From Rubritalea marina DSM 17716 (GTDB lineage Bacteria; Verrucomicrobiota; Verrucomicrobiia; Verrucomicrobiales; Akkermansiaceae), in the NCBI RefSeq assembly GCF_000378105.1, contig NZ_KB899260.1:1-64000 (forward strand): 64,000 bases of DNA, written 5' to 3'. This document shows, in pieces, positions 49,564-64,000 of the stretch. A program made the translations under genes and the position numbers. Each line of letters begins with the position of its first letter. Position 1 is the stretch's first letter. Under the pieces are notes generated by a model. The model was not told the origin of the DNA. It saw nothing but the letters and a program-made list of their open reading frames with translations, and searched no databases.

Positions 49564-49594
49564 AAAATGCACGGCTAAATGCCGTGCATTTTTT
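49564..49594 (+). terminator. Intrinsic terminator after ftsH
   Basis: AAAATGCACGGC-taaat-GCCGTGCATTTT with a following T run: a perfect stem with a five-base loop. It also lies between ftsH and the convergent kinase gene; the A run on the left makes it usable in both directions. Confidence 0.93.
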
Positions 49595-49655: not shown

Positions 49656-51407
49656 TCATGGACTCTCGTGAGATTGTAGCAGTGAATCTAACCATTCAGG
49701 TGAATTGCCGCTCAGGAGATTACTTAAAAAATCTAGTTGGGTGGCAAATAGGAAGTCGTCTGGGCTTCTGTGTGATGAGGCATAGAAAAATAGAGCAAAG
49801 CCAAGTAGTTGCAAGATGACTGCTTGCGTTCCTTTTTGTGGTGAGACAATCGCATAAATGATATCAGTGAATACTGGGAGAATGAGCGATGTGAGGACCC
49901 AACGTGTGTCGTCAGCCATCATGCGCATGCGGCTGAAGATCATGCCGCAGATCACTAAGCCCAGAGCCGCTGCTGAGAATGTCATTTGCCACATCTCTGG
50001 GAATAAGTAGAGGAATGCACCTACGCATATCCCCAAACCAATTAAGGTAATGATTTCGATTGGAGAATCAGGCTTCTCTATCATTTCGACCTTCACCTTT
50101 GCGGCTTTGATTGCAGCTTTTTGGGCTCTGATGCGTTGTGAGTTACGGAGTGCAACCTTCTTTTTCTTGGGTGGTCGAGGTGGTTTGACCACGGCTTCTT
50201 GAAATTCCTCTTTAAATTCAGGAATTTCTTTAGCTGGAGTCCATTGGCCAATACGCTGCTGGTAGATTTGGTCGTGTTCTTTGATGTAACCATCGGCAAT
50301 GAGTTCACAGACTTTACTGAAGGGAACTGGTCCCTTTCTGTTGCCGTCGATGGAAAAATACCACATGTTTTGCGGGCGCTGTTGTTCCACTCTATCGGCT
50401 AACGGGGTGCTTTCCGCAGCCATTGGGGCCGTGGCGGGTCCGCCCTTCTTGGATCGATTAAACTCAGCCTCTTGTTGCTTGGATAGTTTGATACTTGTTT
50501 TTGTATGAGAGGATGCGGCATCAAGTGTCGACTCGGTGAGGTTTTGATCCATGTTAACCTCGGCGTAGTGCTTGAGAGCATCGATGCCTTCGATAGAGAG
50601 TAGCTGTCTGAGGGAATCCTGGCACTTGGCGAATCGTTCACTCGGCTCTTGGCTCAGGTGAGTTTCGACCCATTGACAAAGTGCCTCAGGTAACTCTGGT
50701 GCTACTTCTTTGAGTGGGATGAAAGCGTTTCTCATGTGAGCGGCCATGATCAATACGGAGGAGTCTCCATCGAAGGGGTATTTGCCTGTTAGCATGTAAT
50801 AAAATAGGCAGCCTAGGGAGTAGAGATCACTTTGAGCTGATGGAATTTGATTATCCAATACCTCAGGAGCCATGCAATGAATAGAGCCTACCACTGAGTG
50901 ATTGTTGAGTTCTTGCTCAGAGACGTCTTTATCAGAGTTTTTGAAGGACATCCCGAAATCTAGGACCGTGGCGTGGTAGTTTTCATTGTCCAGTTTTGAT
51001 AGTAGGATATTGGCAGGCTTGAGATCGCAATGAAGAACGCCGTGGCTATGGGATGACTCCATTGCGCTCAGCAGTTGGGTGCTAATGTAACAAAAACTTT
51101 CAAGGCTCAGGGGTTTTGATCCAACTACTTTATCGAGGCTTTCACCTTCGATAAACTCCATAATAATGTCCCCGCCTTTGTCGCTCTCGATCACGTCAAA
51201 AACAGAAACAATGCTAGGGTGTTTGAGCCCAGCTAGGATTTTTGCCTCACTCAGGAGCTGATTACTTAATTTATGGCAGGCTCCGTCGTTATTGAGGTCG
51301 AGGCGTTTCAGGGCAACATCACGGTCGAGTTTCGTGTCGTGTGCAAGGTAGACTGAGCCGAAACCTCCGGAACCTAGTTTTCTGATGATTTGATGTCGCT
51401 CACTCAT
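49656..51407 (-). CDS. Ser/Thr protein kinase with GYF_2 domain and C-terminal membrane helices
   Basis: A 583-residue kinase. The Hanks-type domain (about 1-265) has the Gly loop 'LGSGGFGSVYLA', Lys34 in 'VALKRL', catalytic Asp128 in 'HCDLKPANILL', 'DFG' at 150-152 and 'MAPE'. The catalytic loop reads HCD rather than HRD, so it is a non-RD kinase. A GYF_2 domain begins at residue 348 ('MWYFSIDGNRKGPVPFSKV'; also 'GQWTPAKEIPEF'). Three or four hydrophobic helices near the C-terminus anchor it with the kinase inside. It ends the long pilus gene array, 28 bases after the preceding gene, so it probably phosphorylates array products or listens to them. Confidence 0.88.
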   Translation of the reverse strand: MSERHQIIRKLGSGGFGSVYLAHDTKLDRDVALKRLDLNNDGACHKLSNQLLSEAKILAGLKHPSIVSVFDVIESDKGGDIIMEFIEGESLDKVVGSKPLSLESFCYISTQLLSAMESSHSHGVLHCDLKPANILLSKLDNENYHATVLDFGMSFKNSDKDVSEQELNNHSVVGSIHCMAPEVLDNQIPSAQSDLYSLGCLFYYMLTGKYPFDGDSSVLIMAAHMRNAFIPLKEVAPELPEALCQWVETHLSQEPSERFAKCQDSLRQLLSIEGIDALKHYAEVNMDQNLTESTLDAASSHTKTSIKLSKQQEAEFNRSKKGGPATAPMAAESTPLADRVEQQRPQNMWYFSIDGNRKGPVPFSKVCELIADGYIKEHDQIYQQRIGQWTPAKEIPEFKEEFQEAVVKPPRPPKKKKVALRNSQRIRAQKAAIKAAKVKVEMIEKPDSPIEIITLIGLGICVGAFLYLFPEMWQMTFSAAALGLVICGMIFSRMRMMADDTRWVLTSLILPVFTDIIYAIVSPQKGTQAVILQLLGFALFFYASSHRSPDDFLFATQLDFLSNLLSGNSPEWLDSLLQSHESP

Positions 51408-51434
51408 GATTGTGTTCGTGATTAGCTCGTTGAG

Positions 51435-51893
51435 TTATTGGTCAATCGGGGGGAGCAATGGGTTGTTACTAAAGTCGAAGGGAAGCTCACCGTTATCCTG
51501 TGAGGGAGTTCGAGGCTCTGTGCGAAGCGGCCTGAAGCTTGCACTGTGTGTGTCTAGGCGGAATTGAATCGCATTGACTTCACGATTCAATTCGGACTGT
51601 TGTCTCAGCATCATAGATTGCTGTTGCTTGAGTTGGTTTAGTTGCTGGGCGACAGTGTCGTTGGAGTCGGGTGAAGATGGCTTTACGAATGATGGAGCAT
51701 CCTGAGCGTTCTTGGAATCAGGGGTAAAAGCCAAGGTGTCAGTACCATCAGCCTCCTGAAGTACCGCTACTACAGGAAGAGTACCTTCTTCAGCCTTCTG
51801 GATGAGCTGCTCAATCTCCAGGTGGTGTTTGATTCCCACTCCGAGACTAATTCCAGTCAAGCTGGCACAGATACTGGCTAAAAGAACGTTCAT
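51435..51893 (-). CDS. Hypothetical protein with N-terminal anchor and coiled coil
   Basis: An unrecognised 152-residue protein. Residues about 3-22 are hydrophobic with an embedded Cys ('LLASICASLTGISLGVG'). The middle is low-complexity and acidic, and 'QLNQLKQQQSMMLRQQSELNREV' is a clear coiled coil; the C-terminus is Pro-rich ('SNNPLLPPIDQ'). It lies 6 bases downstream of the next gene in the array and 28 bases upstream of the kinase. A periplasmic tether is possible. Confidence 0.6.
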   Translation of the reverse strand: MNVLLASICASLTGISLGVGIKHHLEIEQLIQKAEEGTLPVVAVLQEADGTDTLAFTPDSKNAQDAPSFVKPSSPDSNDTVAQQLNQLKQQQSMMLRQQSELNREVNAIQFRLDTHSASFRPLRTEPRTPSQDNGELPFDFSNNPLLPPIDQ

Positions 51894-51899
51894 GGATGA

Positions 51900-52643
51900 T
51901 TACTTTGGAAGAGTTTCGACCAGGGCGTTGAGTTTTTGAATGCTGGATGCGATGGCATCTACCGCCTGGCCCAGCTGCGTGTTTGTTTTGGTGAGTTGCG
52001 CGGAGATGCTTTGAGTTTGTTTGTATCCTTCATCAATTCTGTAGCCCGGTTCTGAGACTTGAATGACTTTGTTAGATTCTTCAGGTACTAGAACATAGGG
52101 GATCACCTCAAGTGGAAGAGAGTCGTGCTGTGTGGTCTGAACTTCTAGTTGATATGACTGGCTAGAGTGGGCTGGAATATAACGCCAGCCGATCGGAGGG
52201 TTCTGCAGCGGTTTAGGTGACCATGGGCTCAATATTTTAATCGTCGTAGGGTCACCAGAGAAGGAAACCTGTTTTTTGATTTTAACTCGAACGACCACGG
52301 CATCATCTTGAGGTATCTCAGTGTCAGTAAAATCTGAGCTTTCTTCCTCTAGTTGAGGGGCTTCAGTTGCAGATCCTTCTGGGATCGCGGTATCCTCGAC
52401 CTCCGTGGTATCAGAAATGCGATCATCATCTGAGGGTTCAGTTGATGTAGGCTGGTCTTCTGATGATAAATTGGGGATTGGAGGGAATGGAGATTCGTTC
52501 TCAGTTTGGGAATCAGCCTCTTGCGCTGATTGATCGTCGAGTTCGAGTTCGAGTTCGAGTTCGAGTTCGAGATCCTGTGCAGAAGCATGGAAAGCAAGAA
52601 GGAGGCTCACCCCAATGGGTGCGTATGTGTTGAGCGTTTTCAT
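51900..52643 (-). CDS. Secreted acidic hypothetical protein with (Glu-Leu)n repeat
   Basis: An unrecognised 247-residue protein with a signal peptide ('YAPIGVSLLLAFHASAQ'). Just after the cut site it has an alternating Glu-Leu run ('LELELELELELDD') encoded by hexanucleotide repeats. An acidic low-complexity stretch then leads into a folded region ('VVVRVKIKKQVSFSGDPTTIKILSPWSPKP' spans into 'NPPIGWRYIPAHSSQSY') and a C-terminal coiled coil ('AQLTKTNTQLGQAVDAIASS'). Its ATG overlaps the stop of the upstream gene by one base (TAATG), so the two are coupled. Confidence 0.65.
   Translation of the reverse strand: MKTLNTYAPIGVSLLLAFHASAQDLELELELELELDDQSAQEADSQTENESPFPPIPNLSSEDQPTSTEPSDDDRISDTTEVEDTAIPEGSATEAPQLEEESSDFTDTEIPQDDAVVVRVKIKKQVSFSGDPTTIKILSPWSPKPLQNPPIGWRYIPAHSSQSYQLEVQTTQHDSLPLEVIPYVLVPEESNKVIQVSEPGYRIDEGYKQTQSISAQLTKTNTQLGQAVDAIASSIQKLNALVETLPK
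52539..52574. repeat. Hexanucleotide repeat in the acidic secreted protein gene
   Basis: Five perfect GAGTTC units (52539-52568) plus one imperfect unit (GAGATC). The unit length keeps the frame, so slippage would lengthen or shorten the Glu-Leu run without a frameshift. Confidence 0.95.
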
Positions 52644-53341
52644 TACTTTGAGACTTTGATGGTGTTCTTACTCTTTCCTTCGAGGAGGCTAGCGTGATTA
52701 ATCGTTGAATGAGGAAGGGATGGGCTATCGGCACGGAGAGCTTCAATAGGTTGTGAGTCCATGAGTAATTTATCCCAGGCGCGCTGGATGTTCTGGCCAT
52801 CTGTGTGTAACTTCTTAACTTGAGCGTGGTAGATTTTTAGAGCTCGTAGGATACGGCCAGCCTCATTTGCCTCCGCTGGAGAAAATCGAAGACCTCTTGT
52901 TTGGTAGATGACAGGCACTTCTAGAATGACTCGTTCATTGCCTTGGTCGGATTGGACCAGGAGCACGTGCTGAATAGCATCATTGGTTTCTTCGAAGCCG
53001 ACCAGTCGCTCGGTAGAGCTGTCTGAGGGAACGGGAACAGAGTTTTTTCCGGAACTTGGGTCTACAGGCTGGATGGATGGTAGCTCCGCATCCATTCCTG
53101 GGAGAGAGGGGGCATCCACGAGGCTGGAAGCCATACTGCTGGCCTCAGGAGCTTGTGGCGTTGAAGTACCTCCTTCGGTAATCACGCTATCAGATGGAGC
53201 AGATGTGGCTGCTTGCACAATTTCAGTGGGCTTGGTCACATAGAGCCAACAGAAAAAGACTGCTGCCAAGGTGCTGAAAATGAGCAGAAACTTATAGGTG
53301 AGTGAGACATCTCCTCCGGATGAACTGGATTGAGCATTCAT
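52643..53341 (-). CDS. Hypothetical inner-membrane-anchored protein
   Basis: An unrecognised protein of about 232 residues. ATG 53341 ('MNAQSSSSGGDVSLTYKF') is preferred over a TTG at 53413 that would overlap the upstream gene by 29 bases. One TM helix follows ('FLLIFSTLAAVFFCWLYV'), then a Ser/Pro-rich linker and a compact C-terminal domain with beta character ('VLLVQSDQGNERVILEVPVIYQTRG') and a helical end ('ILRALKIYHAQVKKLHTDGQ'). The bitopic layout with a periplasmic domain is like PilN/PilO/GspM proteins in outline, but no homology is claimed. Confidence 0.65.
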   Translation of the reverse strand: MNAQSSSSGGDVSLTYKFLLIFSTLAAVFFCWLYVTKPTEIVQAATSAPSDSVITEGGTSTPQAPEASSMASSLVDAPSLPGMDAELPSIQPVDPSSGKNSVPVPSDSSTERLVGFEETNDAIQHVLLVQSDQGNERVILEVPVIYQTRGLRFSPAEANEAGRILRALKIYHAQVKKLHTDGQNIQRAWDKLLMDSQPIEALRADSPSLPHSTINHASLLEGKSKNTIKVSK

Positions 53342-53384
53342 GTACGTTGACTTTGTATTCTGATCTAGTGGAACTCTAGCTTTT

Positions 53385-53894
53385 TTATTCACCTTTTTCG
53401 ATCTTCTCAGCAACCGTCACCAAGACTGTGTTTGAGAGTGGAGGAAACTCAGTGATGATGAGTGATGCGTTGCTTAATGCAATTTGCTTCGTTGTTTGGG
53501 CAGTGATCATCCGTGCCTGAAGTCCAGGTTGGATCGAGAGGTTGCCGAAGCTATCTAAGTCTGAGACGCCATCATCCCGGTAGATAGTGAAAAGTTGGTA
53601 TGCGTCATCGATCGCAGAATGGTAAATCTTGAGTTCTTGGTTGTTGCTGAAAACCTTGAATGTAAGGCCTGTTGGAGTGCTCTCAATTGATTCAGTAGGC
53701 GTGATTTTCAGCAGACGAACCACCTCAAAATCTCCAATAAAATCAAAGTGCTCCACCACGTCATGGTCAGGCACTACTATGGCTACCGAAGGTTCCTGTG
53801 CTCTAGCCAGCTGATTCAAGGTGCACAAAAAAACTGCCACCATGAAATGCAAGAGGCAAAGAACATGGGGGCAGCGTCTAGAGATTTGGATCAT
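53385..53894 (-). CDS. Hypothetical secreted protein
   Basis: An unrecognised 169-residue protein. A hydrophobic leader ('VLCLLHFMVAVFLCTLNQLARAQ') looks like a signal peptide with a cut after 'ARA'. The mature part has predicted strands ('EVVRLLKITPTESIESTPTGLTF', 'FKVFSNNQELKIYHSAIDDAY') and ends with Lys/Glu. It is 14 bases downstream of the minor prepilin gene. Position suggests a pilus-accessory protein; no function is assigned. Confidence 0.6.
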   Translation of the reverse strand: MIQISRRCPHVLCLLHFMVAVFLCTLNQLARAQEPSVAIVVPDHDVVEHFDFIGDFEVVRLLKITPTESIESTPTGLTFKVFSNNQELKIYHSAIDDAYQLFTIYRDDGVSDLDSFGNLSIQPGLQARMITAQTTKQIALSNASLIITEFPPLSNTVLVTVAEKIEKGE

Positions 53895-53908: not shown

Positions 53909-54310
53909 TCATTTGCCCGCATCCCATTGCCCATCGTCTGTGGAGCCTGATGGGTCAGTGTACCCGGTGATGATCGGGGGACTCACATTGACTGTGATGG
54001 CGTAAACGACTCCGTCCAGTCCAGTAACGGTCGGCATCACCCCCCCGAAAGAATCTGGTAGGTATGGAATGATATCGGCGTTTGTAATAGTTCCTACATT
54101 AGTGGTTGGATTGTCCGCTAAGAAGAGTCTCTGAGCTTGGTACACACCTTTGAGTGTCTCCCCTGCTTCTATGCCTTCTTGCCAATCTCTATAAGCAGTA
54201 ACACTTATCAATACTGTGGAAAGCATGACGAGTATGATCGATATAACGACTGTAAGTTCGATTAGCGTAAGTCCATTTTTTGGGAAGGTAGGTTTGTATA
54301 GTTTTTTCAT
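53909..54310 (-). CDS. Minor prepilin-like protein
   Basis: A 133-residue protein with a type IV prepilin leader: 'FPKNG' then 'LTLIELTVVISIILVMLSTV', with Gly before the cut and Glu at mature position 5. The mature domain ('YQAQRLFLADNPTTNVG', 'IIPYLPDSFGGVMP') lacks Cys. It overlaps the upstream gene by four bases (ATGA). Placement after PilB and PilC, apart from the other prepilin gene, suggests a minor or initiating pilin. Confidence 0.85.
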   Translation of the reverse strand: MKKLYKPTFPKNGLTLIELTVVISIILVMLSTVLISVTAYRDWQEGIEAGETLKGVYQAQRLFLADNPTTNVGTITNADIIPYLPDSFGGVMPTVTGLDGVVYAITVNVSPPIITGYTDPSGSTDDGQWDAGK

Positions 54311-54717
54311 TTTCTCGATTCTATGACTTCTTTGAGGGTGCTTTTGAAGTGGATGAATAAATCTGATTCAGTCAGCAAGGATCTATTCTGTATCGTTACT
54401 ATGATTAATACTAAAATAACTGTTTTCCAGATAACCCTGTACGTGAAGCTGGAGTTCTTTTTGTACAATATACCATTGTACCAGTGAGACCCCTCGACTA
54501 GTGAAGTTTTGTATGTAAAGCCTTGAGCATTTAGTAGTCTAATAAAACGTTCAGCGATTGTTTTATTTTTGATTATCACTAAGTATTCATATTGGCCTGA
54601 TTTTTTATTGAGAACTTTGACGCCTCTTGGGATTTTGTCAGGTACGCGAACGAGCCTTATGTGATGTTCAAATATAAATTGCTCCAAGAGCCAGCGGTCT
54701 AATTTTGTTTGATACAT
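54307..54717 (-). CDS. Hypothetical protein with one membrane helix, between pilC and minor prepilin
   Basis: An unrecognised 136-residue basic protein. The N-terminal half seems cytoplasmic ('MYQTKLDRWLLEQFIFEHHI', 'YEYLVIIKNKTIAERFIRLLNAQGFTYKTS' within), followed by one hydrophobic helix ('VIWKTVILVLIIVTIQNR') and a short tail. It overlaps the prepilin gene by four bases and lies 10 bases after pilC, so it is embedded in the operon. It could be a small assembly factor. Confidence 0.65.
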   Translation of the reverse strand: MYQTKLDRWLLEQFIFEHHIRLVRVPDKIPRGVKVLNKKSGQYEYLVIIKNKTIAERFIRLLNAQGFTYKTSLVEGSHWYNGILYKKNSSFTYRVIWKTVILVLIIVTIQNRSLLTESDLFIHFKSTLKEVIESRK

Positions 54718-54727
54718 CGATCTCGGT

Positions 54728-55873
54728 TCACATTGCAGAATTCATCATTTCTGGTCCCGCCAGGAAAATAGGCATGAAGACACTCATAAATACCAACGCT
54801 ACCATGCTGACTGCTCCAAACATAACGAAAAAACTAAGGAGATTAGAGAAATTTTCCATACTCTCCTGACATTCTTCTTCATACATTTCTGTTAGCATGG
54901 CCAATTGGTCACCCATTGATGCAGATTTTTCACCAATTGATAGCATGTGTACAATCTGGTCATCAACTGAAGTAAACTTGCTAAAGGCAATAGCTAATGG
55001 AACGCCTGAACTTTCATATTGCTCAGCAGCTCTTAAAAGCTCATCATGAAACGGTGTCCCTTTTACTGAGGCTGCCGCAGTTTTGATAGCTTTTGCCATA
55101 TTGATACCATTACCATGTAGCAGCTTGATTACACCCAAAAAAGTGGCTTGCCTTAGCCCTTGGACAAGTTTTCTTAGAACTCGCCACTTGGACATGGCTA
55201 AATTCATCACTAAGTCGCGTAGTTTTTTTGATATTATAAATGCCAACACTATTGAGATGAGTATGGTCAGTGCGAGCGGGTACCACTGGATAGTGAAGTC
55301 ACTTAGAGTAAAGAAGAATTTCACGGGGCCTTTTGGTTCATAGTTGCCACCTCCAACCATTCCTCTAATCTGAGGGACGATACTGATCTGACAGTAGATG
55401 AAAGCCATGATTAATACGGGAAAAACAATACTTGGTATTACAACGATTTTTCTGATTTTCTTGGAAAAAAAAGCTGCGGTTTCGGCTCTAGTTGCAAGGT
55501 CCCTAAAGGCGGAATCCAATTCCCCAGAATCCATTCCAGCTTTGATTAGGCCCAATGTCATGTCATCGAAGTGCTTACTTCTTTTGAATGCATCATAAAC
55601 AGAGATACCACCATGAATATCATCATGGATTTTTAGGAGAGTACCAGCCATGTTTTTGTCTGGTAAACCCTCAGCATAATACTTAAGCGCATCAGCTGTG
55701 TTGATCTGAGCTTTCATCATCGAGGCTAAACCTCGGTAAAGTTTGATAGAATCTTTGGTTTTGAAACGCTTCGGTTTATTAGGAAATAGCTGTATTTCCT
55801 TATTCATTGCCGTTTTTGGCTTCTCTTCTTTAATCGGGGCGTTCTGTCGATTAGGTGATGGGATTGAGCTCAT
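54728..55873 (-). CDS. pilC: Type IV pilus inner-membrane platform protein PilC/GspF
   Basis: The inner-membrane platform that couples the assembly ATPase to pilin extrusion. It has 381 residues with two GspF domains ('LYRGLASMMKAQINTADALKYYA' opening the first, 'LLHGNGINMAKAIKTAAASVKG' the second) and TM helices near 140-160, 195-215 and the C-terminus. 'GLIKAGMDSGELDSAF' and 'MLSIGEKSASMGDQL' are the paired family motifs. The N-terminal 40 residues are Lys-rich and variable. It is 29 bases downstream of the pilB stop. Confidence 0.93.
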   Translation of the reverse strand: MSSIPSPNRQNAPIKEEKPKTAMNKEIQLFPNKPKRFKTKDSIKLYRGLASMMKAQINTADALKYYAEGLPDKNMAGTLLKIHDDIHGGISVYDAFKRSKHFDDMTLGLIKAGMDSGELDSAFRDLATRAETAAFFSKKIRKIVVIPSIVFPVLIMAFIYCQISIVPQIRGMVGGGNYEPKGPVKFFFTLSDFTIQWYPLALTILISIVLAFIISKKLRDLVMNLAMSKWRVLRKLVQGLRQATFLGVIKLLHGNGINMAKAIKTAAASVKGTPFHDELLRAAEQYESSGVPLAIAFSKFTSVDDQIVHMLSIGEKSASMGDQLAMLTEMYEEECQESMENFSNLLSFFVMFGAVSMVALVFMSVFMPIFLAGPEMMNSAM

Positions 55874-55902: not shown

Positions 55903-57600
55903 TTAATGGTCATCTGAAGACATATCAATAACCTTGGAGACTGCATCTAGATCAGTCTTTCCAGACTTCAGTAGTTTGAGACCACTACGTCGAAGGTTGG
56001 GAAGAATTCCTTCTGCTTCAATTTGTATTTCGAGATCGTATGGAGAAATTTCGCCTTTTGAAAGTTGATCGGAGATTTTAGGAGTTATTGGTATAATTTC
56101 TACAATCGCGGTACGACCAGCATATCCTGAACTATTGCATTCTTGGCAGCCGTCTTGGTTTCTTTCATAGATTACCTGAGTAGTCCAGCTATCGTCGAGG
56201 TTGTAGGTCTTCCTGTCATACTCTGACACACCTTCAAGTTCAACCTTGCAGTATGGGCAGAGCACTTTGAGTAGGCGTTGGGCACAGGCAGCCTTGAGTG
56301 TTTGTGCGATCTTCCAGCGTTCAATGCCAAGCTGCTCGAAGCGCTCAATAATCTGAGATGCGCGGGCCGTGTGTACGGTAGTCAGCACTTTGTGACCAGT
56401 AACTGCAGCTTCAATTGCCAGTTCTGCGGATTCGATGTCACGCACCTCACCCATAAGTATAATATCTGGATCTGAGCGCATAAACGAAGAAACCATGGGT
56501 TTAAATTCGTCTGCACTTCTAAGGTCACAATGCGTGATGCCAGGCACTTCATCTTCAACAGGGTTTTCTAGTGTGAGAATATTAACTTCAGGACGGTTCA
56601 ATTCACGAAGCATTGCATTCAAGGTGGTCGATTTACCTGAACCTGTCGGCCCAGACATTACGATAATACCTGCAGGCACCTTCATCACCTTCCGCATGGC
56701 AAAGAGGGTTTCGTCATCAAAGGCCAGTGTTCCTTTTCCTAGGGTCACATTCAGGTTGCCTTTGTCAAGTAGACGCATGGTAATGTGGTAGCCACGGTAT
56801 GTTCTGTGGCGCTCGTATCGAATATCAATAGGGCGATGAAAGTAACTGATGGTGAAACGCCCAGAAATACCAATGGCTGTACTTCTAATTTCGGGCGGTA
56901 GGCCCATGAGGTTTAATAGAAATGCATCAATACGATCCTTCAGCTTCATCGGAAGCTCCACTCTAGGAGCAATGTCTCCATTGATACGGAATGCGTAATA
57001 GAAACTCTCTTTTTCGACTTTGAAGTGTATATCAGAGGTGCGCTTTTTAACCGCATCAGACATGATCTGTGCAGTAAGCGCTGCCATGGGTTCGTCGTAT
57101 TCGGTGTTTGTTACATCGAAGTCCTTTTTGAATTCTTCAAAATCTTCTACTTCGATTGATTCCAGTTGTTCCTGATTCGGCCCAGCTGAAGCCGAAGCAT
57201 TTTCAATGGTACGGCTGATCTCAGACTTGATCGTAACAATACGTACAATTTCATGGCCGGGAAAGCGTGAGGCTAAGTACTCATCAGCTTGAGATTGCCA
57301 AGGGTCCACTACGGCAATCAATAAAGTCTGGTGATGTATGCAGAGAGGTGTGAAGTTTCCTCTAGTGAGGGTAGACGGGTCACATTTATCAAGTAATTCA
57401 GAGTCACAAAATTCAGCTACTTTTGGGAAAAACGCCAGACCATTCATTTTGGCTAAGCAAGCCATGAAAACTGATTTTGTTACCCTGTTTTGAACTTGAT
57501 CGTGAGTGATTTCAGCAAAAGCTTGGTCATGCTCACCTAGCGCTTGCATGATTTGTTTACTGATGAGGTCATTGAATTGGAACCCGTCAAAATCAATCAT
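55903..57600 (-). CDS. pilB: Type IV pilus assembly ATPase PilB/GspE
   Basis: The hexameric extension ATPase, 565 residues. An N-terminal GspE_N-type domain (about 1-140) is followed by the ATPase core: Walker A 'GPTGSGKST' (Lys323), Asp box, Walker B 'IILMGEVRDIESAE', and a His box 'LTTVHTARASQIIERF'. A tetracysteine zinc site is at Cys448/451 and Cys485/488 ('CPYC', 'CQEC'), as in PilB and GspE but not PilT. Its ATG overlaps the upstream gene's stop by four bases. Confidence 0.95.
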   Translation of the reverse strand: MIDFDGFQFNDLISKQIMQALGEHDQAFAEITHDQVQNRVTKSVFMACLAKMNGLAFFPKVAEFCDSELLDKCDPSTLTRGNFTPLCIHHQTLLIAVVDPWQSQADEYLASRFPGHEIVRIVTIKSEISRTIENASASAGPNQEQLESIEVEDFEEFKKDFDVTNTEYDEPMAALTAQIMSDAVKKRTSDIHFKVEKESFYYAFRINGDIAPRVELPMKLKDRIDAFLLNLMGLPPEIRSTAIGISGRFTISYFHRPIDIRYERHRTYRGYHITMRLLDKGNLNVTLGKGTLAFDDETLFAMRKVMKVPAGIIVMSGPTGSGKSTTLNAMLRELNRPEVNILTLENPVEDEVPGITHCDLRSADEFKPMVSSFMRSDPDIILMGEVRDIESAELAIEAAVTGHKVLTTVHTARASQIIERFEQLGIERWKIAQTLKAACAQRLLKVLCPYCKVELEGVSEYDRKTYNLDDSWTTQVIYERNQDGCQECNSSGYAGRTAIVEIIPITPKISDQLSKGEISPYDLEIQIEAEGILPNLRRSGLKLLKSGKTDLDAVSKVIDMSSDDH

Positions 57601-58148
57601 CGTTCAAAGTGCTTTTCATTGAGTTTTTTCCATGCATCGTAACCAATTCGGACACAAGTGATGAATGGGGATATCTTAAGAGTTCCCGAAATATAGGCGT
57701 GTGCGGCCTGGGCGAATATTGTCGCAGTCACTGGGTTGATGGACCCAAGACCAATAACGTCTGCATCTTCGTTATAGAGTATAGGACACTTGAATGAGCG
57801 AGCTAAGTCATAAATGGGCTCATGTTTTTCATAAAATGCATTAGGGGTCATCATGCTGCCAGCGAATGGGGCAGGAGGCATGACAGGGCTCACTAAGGAG
57901 GCTAACATCATGTTCCAGCGTTCAATCGTGAATGGATACTGGCTTTCCTCATTCGAATCTTCAACTGCAAGCCGATGAAGGGGTTCAACGGGGAGGTTTT
58001 TGGACCACGCATCCATGCAGTATCGAGTCACCACATCGATGTCGTTGTCACTCGCTATACCTGCTTTTGCAAAAGCAGCAGCACTCTGTTGCATTGAATA
58101 GCTGTGCCACTCTGTGATGTGAGGAGACGAATGAGGTGACTCAGTCAT
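57597..58148 (-). CDS. Hypothetical protein between secretin and pilB genes
   Basis: An unrecognised 183-residue protein without signal peptide. 'AKAGIASDNDIDVVTRYCMDAW' and 'FTIERWNMMLASLVSPVMPPAPFAGSMMTP' are notable segments; the second is hydrophobic but broken by Pro, and 'PFITCVRIGYDAWKKLNEKHF' ends the protein. It is coupled to pilB by a four-base overlap and 26 bases after the secretin gene, so a cytoplasmic partner of the ATPase is a fair guess. Confidence 0.65.
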   Translation of the reverse strand: MTESPHSSPHITEWHSYSMQQSAAAFAKAGIASDNDIDVVTRYCMDAWSKNLPVEPLHRLAVEDSNEESQYPFTIERWNMMLASLVSPVMPPAPFAGSMMTPNAFYEKHEPIYDLARSFKCPILYNEDADVIGLGSINPVTATIFAQAAHAYISGTLKISPFITCVRIGYDAWKKLNEKHFER

Positions 58149-58174: not shown

Positions 58175-59914
58175 TTAACGGCGACGTGATCCTGATGGTG
58201 ACTGCTTGTAGGAATTACCACTTGAAGTGTTGGAGCTGCCATTGAATGGTTTACCAACTTCTTTTTTGATGTTCTTCCATGTGCGACTGAGACCCGGGTC
58301 TGCAATGTAGTCATTTTCTTCTCCATCTAGTGCCATTGGCTTTTTAGGAACTTCAAGCTTCGAGTTGACTCGATCGTTAACTCTGTTGTTTGAAGCATGC
58401 GATGTCGGGTCATAGCTTGTGGGGGTGACAACAAAGATTAAGCTAGATTTCTCTTTTTGCGTTGAGGAGCTCTTGAAGAAGAAGTTGATCACAGGGATGT
58501 CTCCAAGGAGGGGTACCTTATTCTTTATTTCAGTTTCTTGTTCGGAGAAGAAACCACCAACTACCAGTGAGTGACCATCTGGGATACGTGCGATTGTGGT
58601 CAGTGAGGACTCTAATACACGAGGGTAGCGGTTAGGAGTTGATCCTGCCTCTGAGGATCCCTCGACGAACTCAGTAATGGAAGCTGCACGTGGACGCATT
58701 TTGAGGCGAATTGTTCCGTCTGGGAGAAGTGTCGGTGTGACGGATATTGTGGTTCCGATTTCACGCGTGTTCTCGGGCTCGTTTGAGTCTTCCTCGTCAA
58801 TCTTATATCTGACTTCCTCCGAAGTAGTTGAAGAGGTGCCAGTCGTAGTGGTTGATGTGATGATTGGTACTCGATCGATGACAGAGATGTTTGCGAGCTC
58901 GTTGTCTTCAGTGATGAGGACAGGATTATTTTGAAGGCGAGTGATGCCAGCATCATTCAGTGCTCTAAGGACTCCAGTAATCTGATCTGGGGTGAAAACT
59001 AGAGCGCCTGCTGCTTCGATATCTCCAAGATCACCAGCAATGGCTTCAGCGCCCGTGCCGATAGGAAGGCCTAGCATGCTATTCAATCCCGCGGTGAGCC
59101 CTGTGCCACCCGTAGCTCCGAGAGCAGATTCCCAGTCTACGCCGATGTTTTGGCCAACTGAATCGATGACTCGGTAGATTTTTACTTCAACAACGATTTG
59201 TCCCTTCGCGCGGTCGATACGAGACAAGAGGCTTTGGACTCGCTCAATCTTGTACGGTGTGTCGATGACGATGAGCGTGTTGGTTTTTTCTTCGTAATTG
59301 ACTACCGCATTAGCACTACATAGCGGACGCACCAGAGATGTGATGTGTTGCTTCATGTTTGCCGAACGAAGATATCGAAGGCTGTATGTCCATTCAGTTG
59401 ATGGAAGTTGATTTAACTGGTCGCCTGTTAGTGCGTAGATGGTATTCCCGCGCCTGTGCAGGGTTAGGCCGTTATTAAATGCTAGGTCTTCCATCTGCGT
59501 GAGAGCATCGCCGTCACGCAGGTAACCATTTACTTTAAATTCTTCTCCAGCAATACGATTGTTGTGGAAATATGACAAATTCGCGCCACGGGCCAAGACC
59601 TCAAAAACGGTGTTCAGATCTGCATCATTCAGACGCATGCCATTTTCCATTTCTGTTTGTTGCGGTTGCTCCTCTGCTAAAGGTTCTTCACCAGGGAGGG
59701 CTGCATCAGCCACTTCTTCTTCTGGCTCAGTGATGCCAGGAAGTTCTGGAGTCACAGGCTCAGGCTCCGGAGTCGGTCCGCTAGCCGGAAAGTCTGCCAC
59801 TGGCTGCGGGGCTTCTGGGGGTGTCTGATCTTGGGCTTGCACAGATGCTGCGTAGACAGCAAATGCTGCAAGCGTAGTTGGTAGTAACTTCATACTTCTT
59901 AGCTTACTTTTCAT
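58175..59914 (-). CDS. Type II/IV secretin (PilQ/GspD family)
   Basis: The outer-membrane gated channel, 579 residues. A signal peptide ('LLPTTLAAFAVYAASVQAQ') and a long Pro/Glu-rich linker lead into an N-terminal STN-like/N1 region ('MRLNDADLNTVFEVLARGANLSYF', 'NYEEKTNTLIVIDTPYKIERVQSLL'). The secretin core ('IVVEVKIYRVIDSVGQNIGVDWES', 'NPVLITEDNELANISV', 'VVGGFFSEQETEIKNKVPLLGDIPVINFFF' region) follows and a Ser/Asn/Gly-rich tail. I take it as the counterpart of Amuc_1098 by family and position. A second ATG at residue 8 is possible. Confidence 0.9.
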   Translation of the reverse strand: MKSKLRSMKLLPTTLAAFAVYAASVQAQDQTPPEAPQPVADFPASGPTPEPEPVTPELPGITEPEEEVADAALPGEEPLAEEQPQQTEMENGMRLNDADLNTVFEVLARGANLSYFHNNRIAGEEFKVNGYLRDGDALTQMEDLAFNNGLTLHRRGNTIYALTGDQLNQLPSTEWTYSLRYLRSANMKQHITSLVRPLCSANAVVNYEEKTNTLIVIDTPYKIERVQSLLSRIDRAKGQIVVEVKIYRVIDSVGQNIGVDWESALGATGGTGLTAGLNSMLGLPIGTGAEAIAGDLGDIEAAGALVFTPDQITGVLRALNDAGITRLQNNPVLITEDNELANISVIDRVPIITSTTTTGTSSTTSEEVRYKIDEEDSNEPENTREIGTTISVTPTLLPDGTIRLKMRPRAASITEFVEGSSEAGSTPNRYPRVLESSLTTIARIPDGHSLVVGGFFSEQETEIKNKVPLLGDIPVINFFFKSSSTQKEKSSLIFVVTPTSYDPTSHASNNRVNDRVNSKLEVPKKPMALDGEENDYIADPGLSRTWKNIKKEVGKPFNGSSNTSSGNSYKQSPSGSRRR

Positions 59915-59991: not shown

Positions 59992-60558
59992 TTATTTATC
60001 TAGATTGATTGTTTTATTTTCACCACTGGGTAGAGCTGGTAAATCGTCGGAGCCAGGGGTGAAGAATGTTCCATTCTGTAGTTTTAGGGTAACTATCGAT
60101 TTGTCAGAGAGATCGAGAAAGGTGATGCGTGATCTGGATATAGAGTTGACCTTTAGGGGGAATTGTTTGCCTTTAACGGAAACGTTAATTTTATTCCCTC
60201 GCTTGTAGGGAGCGCCGTCGACAATGATCATATTCCCTAAAACGGTGATCTTTTTACCAAGTTTGTTGATCTCCTGCTTGATGAGGATTTTTTCTTCCAC
60301 TTTCGGGGCTGCAGCTTGTTTTTTTACCTGTTTTTTAACTACAACTGCCTTGTGCGGGTCTTGAGGTTGGCCAAACGGGTCGTAGGCTCTGTTGTTGATT
60401 GCGAATACCGAAGCCCTCTCATTGATGAAATTATCGATTTGGTTGATTTCGTCTTTTGCTGAAGATAGCTTCGATTTCTCATTTGATGCGAAGACAGAGC
60501 TATGAGAGGATAGTAACAGGAATGTTATAATATGTAGAGCTATTGTTCTGTTTCCCAT
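59992..60558 (-). CDS. PilP-position periplasmic protein (Amuc_1099 counterpart by synteny)
   Basis: A 188-residue protein with a signal peptide ('IALHIITFLLLSSHSSVFAS'). A helical Lys/Asn-rich stretch and a basic linker ('VVVKKQVKKQAAAPKVEEK') precede a small beta domain ('KITVLGNMIIVDGAPYKRG', 'FPLKVNSISRSRITFLDL'), an outline like PilP/GspC, which connect the inner-membrane complex with the secretin. Its N-terminus overlaps the upstream gene by 19 bases. Assignment is by position and shape, not by clear sequence match. Confidence 0.6.
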   Translation of the reverse strand: MGNRTIALHIITFLLLSSHSSVFASNEKSKLSSAKDEINQIDNFINERASVFAINNRAYDPFGQPQDPHKAVVVKKQVKKQAAAPKVEEKILIKQEINKLGKKITVLGNMIIVDGAPYKRGNKINVSVKGKQFPLKVNSISRSRITFLDLSDKSIVTLKLQNGTFFTPGSDDLPALPSGENKTINLDK

Positions 60559-61076
60559 GACGTGTAATTGATTTTAAGTTCGAGTAAGTTGCCTGCTTTT
60601 TGTGGTGCGAGTGACATAGTCTGAACCATGAGGTTTGGGAGTGTGCTCTCTGTTTGTAGCATGACATTCTGTAGTTCGGTGTATGTTCCCTCGATTGTGA
60701 ATGCGCTGCTTGAGGATTTTATATGCGTCAAGCTCCTATTTGGGCTACCTCTCTGAGCGGAAAGGATTTGGAGTGTTTTGGTTGAATCGTTTGTCTCGAT
60801 GGCCTTTCTTAATGCACTGTTGAGGGAATTGAAGCTCTCACTTGTGGTGATTTTTTCCCATGGCTCAATGAATGGGGCGATCTCTACATGTTGTTTTTTG
60901 ATAGGGGGGATTCTGTAGTTGATTGCTGTATCGTTTGTGAATGTTGTTTTACTGAGGTTAAAATCACCCAAAATAGAGTTAGAGGTAATTTTAATTACTA
61001 GTGATACAACAATAGCGATAAGAAAGGGTAGTAATATCGCGATTGCTGATACAGATTGAATGTAATGTTTTTTCAT
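60540..61076 (-). CDS. PilO/GspM-position protein (Amuc_1100 counterpart by synteny)
   Basis: A 178-residue bitopic protein: TM at about 8-32 ('AIAILLPFLIAIVVSLVIKI'), then a periplasmic region with helices ('FNSLNSALRKAIETNDSTKTLQIL') and a ferredoxin-like beta-alpha-beta outline ('FTIEGTYTELQNVMLQTESTLPNLMVQTMSLAP' region) typical of PilO/GspM. In Akkermansia this slot holds Amuc_1100 (about 317 residues as I recall), so the present protein is far shorter and would lack much of its folded part. It starts 11 bases after the PilM/N-like gene. Confidence 0.6.
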   Translation of the reverse strand: MKKHYIQSVSAIAILLPFLIAIVVSLVIKITSNSILGDFNLSKTTFTNDTAINYRIPPIKKQHVEIAPFIEPWEKITTSESFNSLNSALRKAIETNDSTKTLQILSAQRGSPNRSLTHIKSSSSAFTIEGTYTELQNVMLQTESTLPNLMVQTMSLAPQKAGNLLELKINYTSWETEQ

Positions 61077-61086
61077 CGTGTGATCC

Positions 61087-63036
61087 TTATTTAGAAATCA
61101 AGGCCAGAGGGTCCTCGTCTGAGATAGTTTGGTATACTGTCATCGTGAATTCATAGAGATGAGCTCCTTGTACATTTTTAAGCTTTCGAGCATTACGTGA
61201 TAATTTGATGCGTATATCAGAGCGAGGAGTTCGAGATCTATAAGATTCTATGTCGAATGAAGGATCGTGTGTTCCTTCGAACGTGTGCTGGAAAACTTTT
61301 GAAATTCCTGCGGTGCTGTTCAGCTTGTCCAGATATTCTCGGGCTGCTGAGCTAGCAGAGCCTGTAATTGTCCATTGTCTTTTGATCGGTTGGATGTTGT
61401 TGATCGCGCTGTTTGTGTCGATGGAAGTTGTGAAGTTGACGCTATCAATTTTGATCGAGTTAACATCAGGGAATAGACGAGTAATCAATTCCATGGTGCT
61501 CCATGCTCGCGCTCTGTCAGAGAGTTTATTGTCTAGATAGTGGTACTTTTGGATGTCTTTCTTTAGGCTAGTGAGTAAGAAATTAGGGTTGGTGGATTGA
61601 TAGTTCCATGCTGGGTCTTGAGTCGCTTTGAATATGCTAATGCTACTACTAATTAGGGTCATCGCAATGATGACTGCTGCAGCAATTTTAATATACTTGC
61701 TCCATAGAAGCAGCTTCATCTCTAGTTGTTGCGGAATAGGTGCTTGTTCGTCTTCTGAGGGGGGGAGGAAATCTTGAAGTGGCCACATTTCCTCCACAAG
61801 TGTGCTAAATGTATAATTGTTGGCTAGTTCGGACCCTGAAGAAGAAGGGGGTGTGGTAGTGGATATCACCTCGAGTCGTACCTGCGAGAGCATGGCTACA
61901 GCTTCCATGTCACTGAGTTTCCATGGGCGAGTAACTCCTGGGATGGCTGTGTCATCAGCATTGCCATTTGAGTTGAGAGGGTCAGACGTGAGTTCTGTTT
62001 GGGCGGTTAGGTCTGACCATTTCCAGGGGCGTGTTACACCTAGATCGCTTTGCTTGTTCGCTGCACTCGGGGCAGTAGGAATGTGAAGGGCTGAGCTTGT
62101 GGGGCTTAAGGTGGAGACTTCAGAGCCTTGGAGCATGCTAGACAGTGAGTCGCTCATGCCCATTGGGGTGGCGCCTGCCATCGGAATAATATAGACATTG
62201 GGGGATGTGATCTCCATGGAAGCCGCTGCAGACATAATCGCGCTTGCTGTCTGGGGGGAGAAAGGAAGTCCACTGTGGTGTTGGAGAGTTCGAATAAGGA
62301 CGAGATCGCCATTGTTATTGAAGAAACCTAATACAGTAAATCTTGGGTAATGATATACAGTAATAAAGCCATTATCCGGTTTTTCCTTAAGAAGCCATGG
62401 AAGCGCAGCTATGGCGCAAAGTGGGGCGCTTATTGCGCGAGTCCGGATTGGAATGTTATTATCATTTCCCCAACCTCTGAATTGCTTCATGAGAGCTTCG
62501 TGGCGACGAGTGAAGGCTATCGCTGTTGCAAAATTTTGATCACTGTTTGCCCCTGGGTAGGGAAAGAGGCGCCATGCATGAGATTCATTCGAGACAGTTT
62601 GGTCTTCGAGAATAGAGGCTGGATTTTCTTTGATGAGCTTTCTAAGTTCATCGATCGCCCTAGGGTTCTGATGTTCAGGGCCTAGCTCGCAAGTGGAGAA
62701 TTCATCAGCAATGTATAGAACGACCCCTAGGCCAGGACGTTTTGATTCAGTAAAGTATTCCGTGCGAATGCCCTCAAGTACTGGGATGAGTAGGCTTGTG
62801 TCTTCCTCCATCTCTGGAGAAATATTTGGTCCTTTTGCCCATTCGTTCGTTTCTACGTTTCGGATATAGGAGATCGCTCCAGTGTCACTTCCAACAAAGA
62901 TATGTAGCTGAATGTTCACTGCCAGCGCATCACTATACCAAAAGGGGTTGGTGCGGCGACTGGTGTTCTTGGCAAGCAGTTTTGCTTGCTTGTAGCGGCT
63001 AATAAAATTAAGCTGATCTGGAGGTGTTAGGTCCAT
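61087..63036 (-). CDS. Fused PilM/PilN-like (GspL-like) pilus protein (Amuc_1101 counterpart)
   Basis: A 649-residue inner-membrane protein from ATG 63036 (a TTG at 63057 is possible). The cytoplasmic part (about 1-440) has an actin-like outline ('FGTAIAFTRRHEALMKQ'-type segment 'FATAIAFTRRHEALMKQF', then 'GFITVYHYPRFTVLGFFNNNGDLVLIRTL' region). Two copies of 'GVTRPWK' lie at 333-339 and 367-373 in a low-complexity linker. One TM helix at about 446-468 leads to a periplasmic domain with coiled coil and a PilN-like ending. This is the GspL layout, with PilM and PilN fused. It follows the major prepilin gene across a terminator. Confidence 0.72.
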   Translation of the reverse strand: MDLTPPDQLNFISRYKQAKLLAKNTSRRTNPFWYSDALAVNIQLHIFVGSDTGAISYIRNVETNEWAKGPNISPEMEEDTSLLIPVLEGIRTEYFTESKRPGLGVVLYIADEFSTCELGPEHQNPRAIDELRKLIKENPASILEDQTVSNESHAWRLFPYPGANSDQNFATAIAFTRRHEALMKQFRGWGNDNNIPIRTRAISAPLCAIAALPWLLKEKPDNGFITVYHYPRFTVLGFFNNNGDLVLIRTLQHHSGLPFSPQTASAIMSAAASMEITSPNVYIIPMAGATPMGMSDSLSSMLQGSEVSTLSPTSSALHIPTAPSAANKQSDLGVTRPWKWSDLTAQTELTSDPLNSNGNADDTAIPGVTRPWKLSDMEAVAMLSQVRLEVISTTTPPSSSGSELANNYTFSTLVEEMWPLQDFLPPSEDEQAPIPQQLEMKLLLWSKYIKIAAAVIIAMTLISSSISIFKATQDPAWNYQSTNPNFLLTSLKKDIQKYHYLDNKLSDRARAWSTMELITRLFPDVNSIKIDSVNFTTSIDTNSAINNIQPIKRQWTITGSASSAAREYLDKLNSTAGISKVFQHTFEGTHDPSFDIESYRSRTPRSDIRIKLSRNARKLKNVQGAHLYEFTMTVYQTISDEDPLALISK

Positions 63037-63064
63037 CTTCGTTGTGTTTTGGGCCAAGTGAAAT

Positions 63065-63124: not shown

Positions 63125-63499
63125 TTACCATGCTGTCTTGTCGCCTGCTGCTGCATTGTGGGCCGCGCCGTCTGTGGCGTCTGCGCAGCCAACGATTTCA
63201 CCTGTGAGTGTGTATGCTGTCTGAGTAGATGGGCAAACTGGGATGGCTGTCATTGCGCCAGCAGTAACTGCTTCTGCGAGTGTTGGTGATGTGTCAGATG
63301 AGAGGTTTTGGTAACTGCGAAAAGCTTTCTGTGTGGATGACTGGTTGACCACACAGGCTGCTTGATCAGCATTGGTTTTGTAGTAGGAGGCCCCAACGAA
63401 TAGTACTGAGATGAGTACGAGGAGGATGGCGATAACAACTGTCAATTCGATAAGTGTTACACCTTGGCGGTTCTTAATGGAGTATGTATTTTTTTTCAT
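63125..63499 (-). CDS. Major prepilin-like protein (Amuc_1102 counterpart by position)
   Basis: A 124-residue prepilin: leader 'NRQG' then 'VTLIELTVVIAILLVLISVLF', with Gly before the cut and Glu at mature position 5. The mature domain is small (about 110 residues) with three Cys ('AACVV', 'IPVCPS', 'IVGCAD'), two of which could form the D-region disulfide. The start is preceded on the coding strand by an eight-C tract about 28 bases upstream. It lies just after the PilT-like gene and before a terminator, as expected for a highly expressed main pilin. Confidence 0.88.
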   Translation of the reverse strand: MKKNTYSIKNRQGVTLIELTVVIAILLVLISVLFVGASYYKTNADQAACVVNQSSTQKAFRSYQNLSSDTSPTLAEAVTAGAMTAIPVCPSTQTAYTLTGEIVGCADATDGAAHNAAAGDKTAW

Positions 63500-63541: not shown

Positions 63542-64000
63542 CTAGTCGTCGGATTTGGCGAGTTTAGCATTCTCAAAGGTTTCTTGGTCAATTAAGCCGT
63601 TTTGGTGTAGCCTGAGGAGATTGTTGTCCCATTGGATATTACCAGATCTGCGGATAGCATCTTCCAGAGCACTGACACCTCTATCATAAGCTGCAACAGC
63701 TGCGCCAACAGAATCGTCATTATTGTTTAGAAATTCGTAATTCAAAACTCTGCCGTGAATCCCATTTAGCAGACCTTGAGAGTGGATGAAGATCATGATT
63801 TCGCCAAGCCTGTTCAAGATGGAAGCGTGTTTCTCTTTCGGGTACATCTCCAAAATACGGCCCATAGTCTTGACCGCTCCAGTGGTGTGGAGGGTTGACA
63901 GCACGAGGTGGCCGGTTTGTGCTGCTTCTAGGCAGGTATCCATAGCCTCGCGGTCACGAATCTCCCCTAGGAGGATGATGTGAGGCGCTTTACGGAGAAC
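63542..64000 (-). CDS. PilT-like retraction ATPase, C-terminal part (cut by window edge)
   Basis: The open frame runs in from the right edge and ends at 63542; 152 residues are visible. 'HIILLGEIRDREAMD' is the Walker B region, 'TGHLVLSTLHTTGAVKTMGRIL' the His box of PilT/PilU, and 'YPKEKHASILNRLG' continues the PilT C-terminal domain. No tetracysteine site is present, unlike PilB. It would power pilus retraction. It is the most upstream visible gene of the array; its beginning is outside the window. Confidence 0.88.
   Translation of the reverse strand, partial: VLRKAPHIILLGEIRDREAMDTCLEAAQTGHLVLSTLHTTGAVKTMGRILEMYPKEKHASILNRLGEIMIFIHSQGLLNGIHGRVLNYEFLNNNDDSVGAAVAAYDRGVSALEDAIRRSGNIQWDNNLLRLHQNGLIDQETFENAKLAKSDD

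Follow-up and report, generated by a model that had tools for sequence, protein, structure and literature searches.

Four protein families tied to a type IV pilus locus of Verrucomicrobiales, followed by a kinase confined to Rubritalea

Organization of the locus

The window analyzed here, i.e. the whole 64,000-nucleotide stretch, belongs to a Rubritalea genome of 3.0 Mb, whose nearest named relative is R. profundi. It carries a type IV pilus locus which continues into four genes for envelope proteins, designated D, C, B and A, and a gene for a GYF_2 Ser/Thr kinase, designated KIN. The features of this region are as follows:

49564-49592, no strand assigned: 12-pair hairpin between KIN and the convergent ftsH
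49656-51407, minus: KIN, Ser/Thr kinase with GYF_2 domain and C-terminal membrane segments
51435-51893, minus: A, N-terminally anchored coiled-coil protein
51900-52643, minus: B, exported acidic protein
52643-53341, minus: C, bitopic protein (ATG start; a TTG at 53413 would lengthen it)
53385-53894, minus: D, exported protein, predicted small calycin-like beta-barrel
53909-54310, minus: terminal (minor) prepilin
54307-54717, minus: E136, small membrane protein encoded between PilC and the prepilin
54728-55873, minus: PilC/GspF platform protein of a divergent pilus type
55903-57600, minus: PilB/GspE extension ATPase with MshEN domain
57597-58148, minus: F183, conserved protein upstream of PilB, not assigned to a family
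58175-59914, minus: secretin
59992-60558, minus: P188, small exported protein, PilP-like by position and appearance, no family match
60540-61076, minus: O178, PilO/GspM-like (weak T2SSM_b match in 7 of 15 homologues)
61087-63057, minus: M656, large protein in the PilM/PilN position, no family match
63125-63499, minus: first prepilin
63542-64000, minus: PilT-like ATPase, continuing beyond the window edge

Reading along the minus strand, the end of the array has the order terminal prepilin, D, C, B, A and KIN. The original prediction described the last five of these as a tight array behind the minor prepilin, with gaps of 6-43 bases and a single 1-base overlap, and the coordinates, the common strand and the spacing were all confirmed (43 bases for D-C, counted from the ATG start of C, -1 for C-B, 6 for B-A and 27 for A-KIN); the prepilin and D are separated by 14 bases. 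The ATG at 53341 was preferred to the TTG at 53413 as the start of C because the proteins of the Rubritalea relatives begin at that ATG. The hairpin at 49564-49592 is a probable shared terminator of KIN and ftsH, and terminator-like and promoter-like sites inside the array are no commoner than in shuffled sequence. As the reading frames and the gene order are kept in dozens of genomes, the array is not a product of chance.

A secretion-type ATPase, a PilC/GspF platform protein, prepilins and a secretin are encoded together here, which places the locus in the type IV filament superfamily (T2SSE 3e-77, T2SSF 2e-29, N_methyl 2e-4 and 9e-7, Secretin 2e-34). The type IV pilus is encoded in a single locus, and we found pili of this type only in Verrucomicrobiales. 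The terminal and the first prepilin are clearly homologous (hhalign probability 98.5%). F183, encoded just before pilB, is conserved wherever the cluster could be read and has no family match; it may represent an N-domain that became separated from the ATPase.

Proteins encoded by D, C, B and A

Searches of Pfam, NCBIfam and PDB sequences with D, C and B, both as single sequences and as alignments, gave no usable match, and A (sequence and alignment) produced only generic coiled-coil matches in Pfam and NCBIfam. The earlier statement that the four envelope proteins match no known pilus family is borne out by these searches, and their recognition as novel protein families tied to the pilus is supported. 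The protein types originally assigned agree with the hydropathy of D, C, A and KIN; B is indeed acidic, but shows no strong hydrophobic segment in this profile.

The AlphaFold2 model of D contains an all-beta domain of eleven strands, with block-averaged pLDDT values of 92-98 across residues 51-160 and a barrel spanning residues 51-165 (pLDDT mostly above 92). In structure comparison the best VIA match was to a SusCD-associated chain (Z 9.1), followed by FABP barrels at Z 7-9, values of 7-8 being common by chance in VIA, and Foldseek returned no significant match (E 0.02 at best). The term calycin-like is a description of the predicted fold of D, not an assignment to the calycins or to the lipocalin-FABP group.

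Protein C consists of a membrane segment (YPWLL..TKPV), a Pro-rich linker and a C-terminal domain ending with RADSPSLP. Its N-terminal tail is short in the four pilus-bearing Rubritalea and composed of Ser/Thr in 39-73%, versus 0-33% elsewhere, by a crude count that missed some of the tails; this composition is only a hint of a link to the kinase. In the sequences read from a Roseibacillus-like clade (L077, L088-L094), the tail bears a cluster of Cys residues (e.g. CTCQRCG) right before the membrane segment. This is the same clade that lacks both B and the C-terminal domain of C.

Protein B is strongly acidic (net charge -28) and has a signal-peptide-like N-terminus ending with ASA-Q, a low-complexity linker, a four-stranded beta element (residues 153-187) and a C-terminal helix (213-244). 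Its model, with a low pTM of 0.29, comprises a disordered acidic half, four short strands and one confident long helix. Protein A is recognized by the conserved motif ETNRDL-x-EL-x-FRVDTHS-x-SFRPL and a C-terminal LLPP. Paralogy among the four proteins was considered and rejected: D and B, the only suggestive pair (hhalign p 0.0009, score 29.5, whereas 60 column shuffles reached 19.0 at most, strands roughly matching), fail correction for the about 80-90 pairs tested.

The distribution of B follows that of the C-terminal domain of C. Among all 98 loci with A, a count in which some loci are one genome under two names, both were present in 76 and both were absent from 22, with no discordant case. 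The Roseibacillus-like clade, in which the membrane part of C is kept, accounts for 19 of the 22 loci, and in the other three (two genomes) C and B are lost altogether. Since a single clade supplies most of these cases, the co-loss corresponds to about two independent events, which is good, but not overwhelming evidence. Judging from this joint presence and absence, B probably works in partnership with the C-terminal domain of C.

Conservation of the envelope genes with the pilus

Divergent PilC proteins of this pilus type were called at E below 1e-90, their relatives sharing about 45-70% identity, as compared with about 22% for an ordinary PilC. Of 97 genomes examined in the family, 42 had both D and this PilC, 53 had neither, one had PilC only and one had D only (Fisher p 3e-25, uncorrected for phylogeny); the distance between the two genes is 0.83-1.10 kb in 39 of the 42. 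A scan of named genomes with a single PilC sequence found nothing, and the loci of named genomes were obtained by a scan with a PilC alignment, the alignment of D being too poorly conserved for this purpose. The order from the PilT-like gene to A is identical in the full-cluster genera and in most of the 80 named loci, with B missing in one clade, and it is kept over genera g1, g7 and g11-g16, as well as in the named Haloferula, Luteolibacter, Roseibacillus, Persicirhabdus and Rubritalea. In every readable locus with D, the terminal prepilin gene directly precedes it.

In more distant Verrucomicrobiales (named loci L188-L197) and in genome G029 the core ends at the prepilin and, at the locus itself, unrelated genes follow. 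As some core-bearing genomes thus have no D-C-B-A nearby, these genes are not essential to all pili of the type. Genome G029 (L103 / L187 and L198) carries two copies of the divergent PilC and no D. Over the whole phylum, D was detected in 9 of the 289 genomes sampled, all in Akkermansiaceae, with a profile that can miss distant members, as the divergent D of family f65 demonstrates. Conservation is therefore layered: the core up to the prepilin, the prepilin with D, then C-B-A, and finally the kinase.

Linkage to the other pilus genes is not universal. The prepilin-D-C-B-A block stands apart from them in three g12 genomes (G025, G035, G044) and in G521. A search for C in 289 genomes of the order found it outside Akkermansiaceae only in three genomes of family f65, i.e. 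in two families altogether, both of them pilus-bearing. In two of the three (G369 and G371) the C-B-A trio stands alone, and the pilus cluster, which includes the prepilin and the divergent D (E about 1e-21 to 1e-24), is located about 1.04 Mb away in G369 and on another contig in G371; the third (G374, assembly 82% complete) has C fragments only and no such PilC. Co-occurrence of C-B-A and the pilus without linkage argues for a functional tie between them.

The original prediction proposed co-occurrence of all five genes with the pilus genes as its check, and their separation from the pilus in most relatives as a reason to abandon it. D, C, B and A do travel with the pilus and are not separated from it in most relatives, but the kinase does not share this behavior.

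The genes located behind A differ between genera. A convergent PilX-like gene of 635-690 aa starts just behind A in Roseibacillus, Persicirhabdus and their relatives (L090:13617-17170, L099:2877-5770, L123:15220-17184 and others), and in most of them prepilin genes come next; the PilX-like protein and these prepilins are probably minor pilins of this pilus. The convergent minor-pilin operon of other genera was not found at C8 of our genome, where it was looked for.

The kinase

KIN is a Ser/Thr kinase with a GYF_2 domain, both domains scoring above the cut-off (Pkinase E 4e-47, 161 bits; GYF_2 E 4e-12, 46 bits) and the catalytic motifs LGSGGFG, ALKR, HCDLKPAN, DFG and APE being present. Its hydropathy profile shows hydrophobic segments only beyond residue 450, from which we infer that the domains are cytoplasmic.

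The gene lies directly after A in three Rubritalea genomes only (our genome, G066 and G009). It is absent from this position in 33 other loci of the family that were read, and also in G032, the fourth pilus-bearing Rubritalea, whose closest KIN homologue is located on another contig beside unrelated genes; the branching of the kinase tree neither confirmed nor refuted this copy as a KIN orthologue. KIN is a lineage-specific addition confined to Rubritalea, and its absence from most loci means that D-C-B-A exists without the kinase in most hosts. KIN is not conserved with D-C-B-A across genomes, as would be expected of one functional unit, and the original idea of five genes forming a single regulatory arm that ends in phosphorylation is not supported. 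An arm leading from a sensor to the kinase is unsupported in general, and would be possible in Rubritalea only.

The genome encodes eleven Pkinase genes, three of which (C14:50628, C3:90130, C1:144235) are placed no more than about 5 kb from genes for type IV filaments, namely this pilus, a T2SS-like pseudopilin operon and a pilB-pilB-pilC locus (rough binomial p about 0.008, post hoc).

Possible role of the envelope proteins

Based on our observations, we consider it somewhat more probable than not that D-C-B-A forms an accessory subassembly in the envelope that serves a pilus of Verrucomicrobiota, and that a kinase was added downstream in Rubritalea only. In this arrangement C and A would be inner-membrane proteins whose bodies lie in the periplasm, and exported B would dock on the C-terminal domain of C, both partners contributing a long helix as well as a short beta element. 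D, a putative secreted beta-barrel encoded next to the prepilin, would work at the pilin or secretin side, where it might serve in pilin handling, as a secretin gate or in binding a surface ligand. Together, the four proteins would most likely brace or gate the passage of the pilus through the periplasm. They would act in addition to a PilM/N/O/P-like set, for which the locus already encodes a PilO/GspM-like protein and probable equivalents of PilM/N and PilP. In Rubritalea, KIN is probably co-transcribed with the array and may modulate the machine on its cytoplasmic side, e.g. PilB, PilT or the Ser/Thr-rich N-terminal tail of C.

It is also conceivable, though rather unlikely, that D-C-B-A is a part of the pilus and KIN just an unrelated lineage-specific neighbor behind the operon. 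The variable gene content after A, the number of kinases encoded in the genome and the occupation of the slot behind A by something else in G032 are consistent with this. However, KIN follows on the same strand after a short gap, the strong hairpin appears only after it, and three Rubritalea species whose FtsH proteins are 67-74% identical have kept the gene.

We are considerably more doubtful that D-C-B-A senses the state of the pilus or envelope and signals to the GYF_2 kinase, which then phosphorylates its targets. The gap of only 27 bases between A and KIN and the intact catalytic motifs would suit such a pathway, and so would the fact that close KIN homologues occur in exactly the four pilus-bearing genomes of the 12 Rubritalea examined, the eight pilus-free ones having more distant kinases only. 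However, these four genomes fall on one side of a single branch of the FtsH tree (82/90 support), and the match may therefore reflect one event; in addition, no kinase gene adjoins D-C-B-A in G032 or in any genus other than Rubritalea, and KIN has no sizeable periplasmic part. A bolder proposal is that of a new envelope subassembly of type IV filaments, to date seen in Verrucomicrobiales only, in which D, as a pilin-linked secreted beta-barrel, accompanies a periplasmic scaffold of C-B-A with two anchors, and the Rubritalea kinase reads or controls the pilus via the short, Ser/Thr-rich tail of C in the cytoplasm; we hold it to be equally doubtful. A separate export or surface-attachment system, with the pilus locus as a mere genomic neighbor, is very improbable: C-B-A does stand alone in family f65 and D is predicted to resemble small ligand-binding beta-barrels, but C was found only in two pilus-carrying families, and its readable unlinked copies are in pilus-bearing genomes.

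Whatever the part played by KIN, an accessory pilus subassembly as the favored explanation of D-C-B-A would define four protein families without known relatives as components of a pilus widespread in aquatic Akkermansiaceae. Particles are enriched in members of this family, and the locus that has drawn attention in the literature is a different one, MUL2 (PMC13174399). In the literature searched we found no description of the present locus in Rubritalea, Haloferula or Luteolibacter. The layers of conservation indicate how genes might be grouped for knock-out studies (the prepilin with D; C with B; A), and separate the question of the pilus from that of the kinase.

Comparison with known systems

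MSHA loci are composed of a PilM/N/O/P-like set, a secretin, an MshEN ATPase, PilC, a small membrane protein, a prepilin and further genes, in this order. The pilus described here is likewise encoded in a single locus with the MSHA gene order through the prepilin, and E136 occupies the MshF position. On the other hand, D-C-B-A follows the prepilin instead of minor pilins or MshQ, and the locus is headed by a PilT-like ATPase. The secretin scored 122 bits against the MshL model (cut-off 250). According to the published MSHA model, mshA, E, G, L and M are mandatory (PMC6668835), and as no MshM-type AAA ATPase is encoded among the genes at 49.6-64 kb, we did not file the locus as MSHA.

The type IVa systems (PilBTC, PilMNOPQ) are similar in possessing extension and retraction-type ATPases, a platform protein, a secretin and prepilins. 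As regards the PilO component of this type, O178 gives a weak T2SSM_b match in 7 of its 15 members; M656 and P188 differ from their type IVa counterparts in matching no Pfam family. We know of no T4aP counterpart of D-C-B-A.

MUL2 (Amuc_1098-1102) is a pilus-like envelope system of Akkermansiaceae, known from Akkermansia (PMC13174399). Its secretin belongs to another family than that of the window, which scored 84 bits against the Amuc_1098 family (cut-off 750), and the two loci are distinct. The PilC type of the window is absent from the sampled genomes of genus g3, which is probably Akkermansia.

Finally, KIN shares the combination of Pkinase, GYF_2 and C-terminal membrane segments with GYF_2 Ser/Thr kinases, a related one being encoded elsewhere in the same genome (C3); what distinguishes KIN from these is its location behind a pilus operon.
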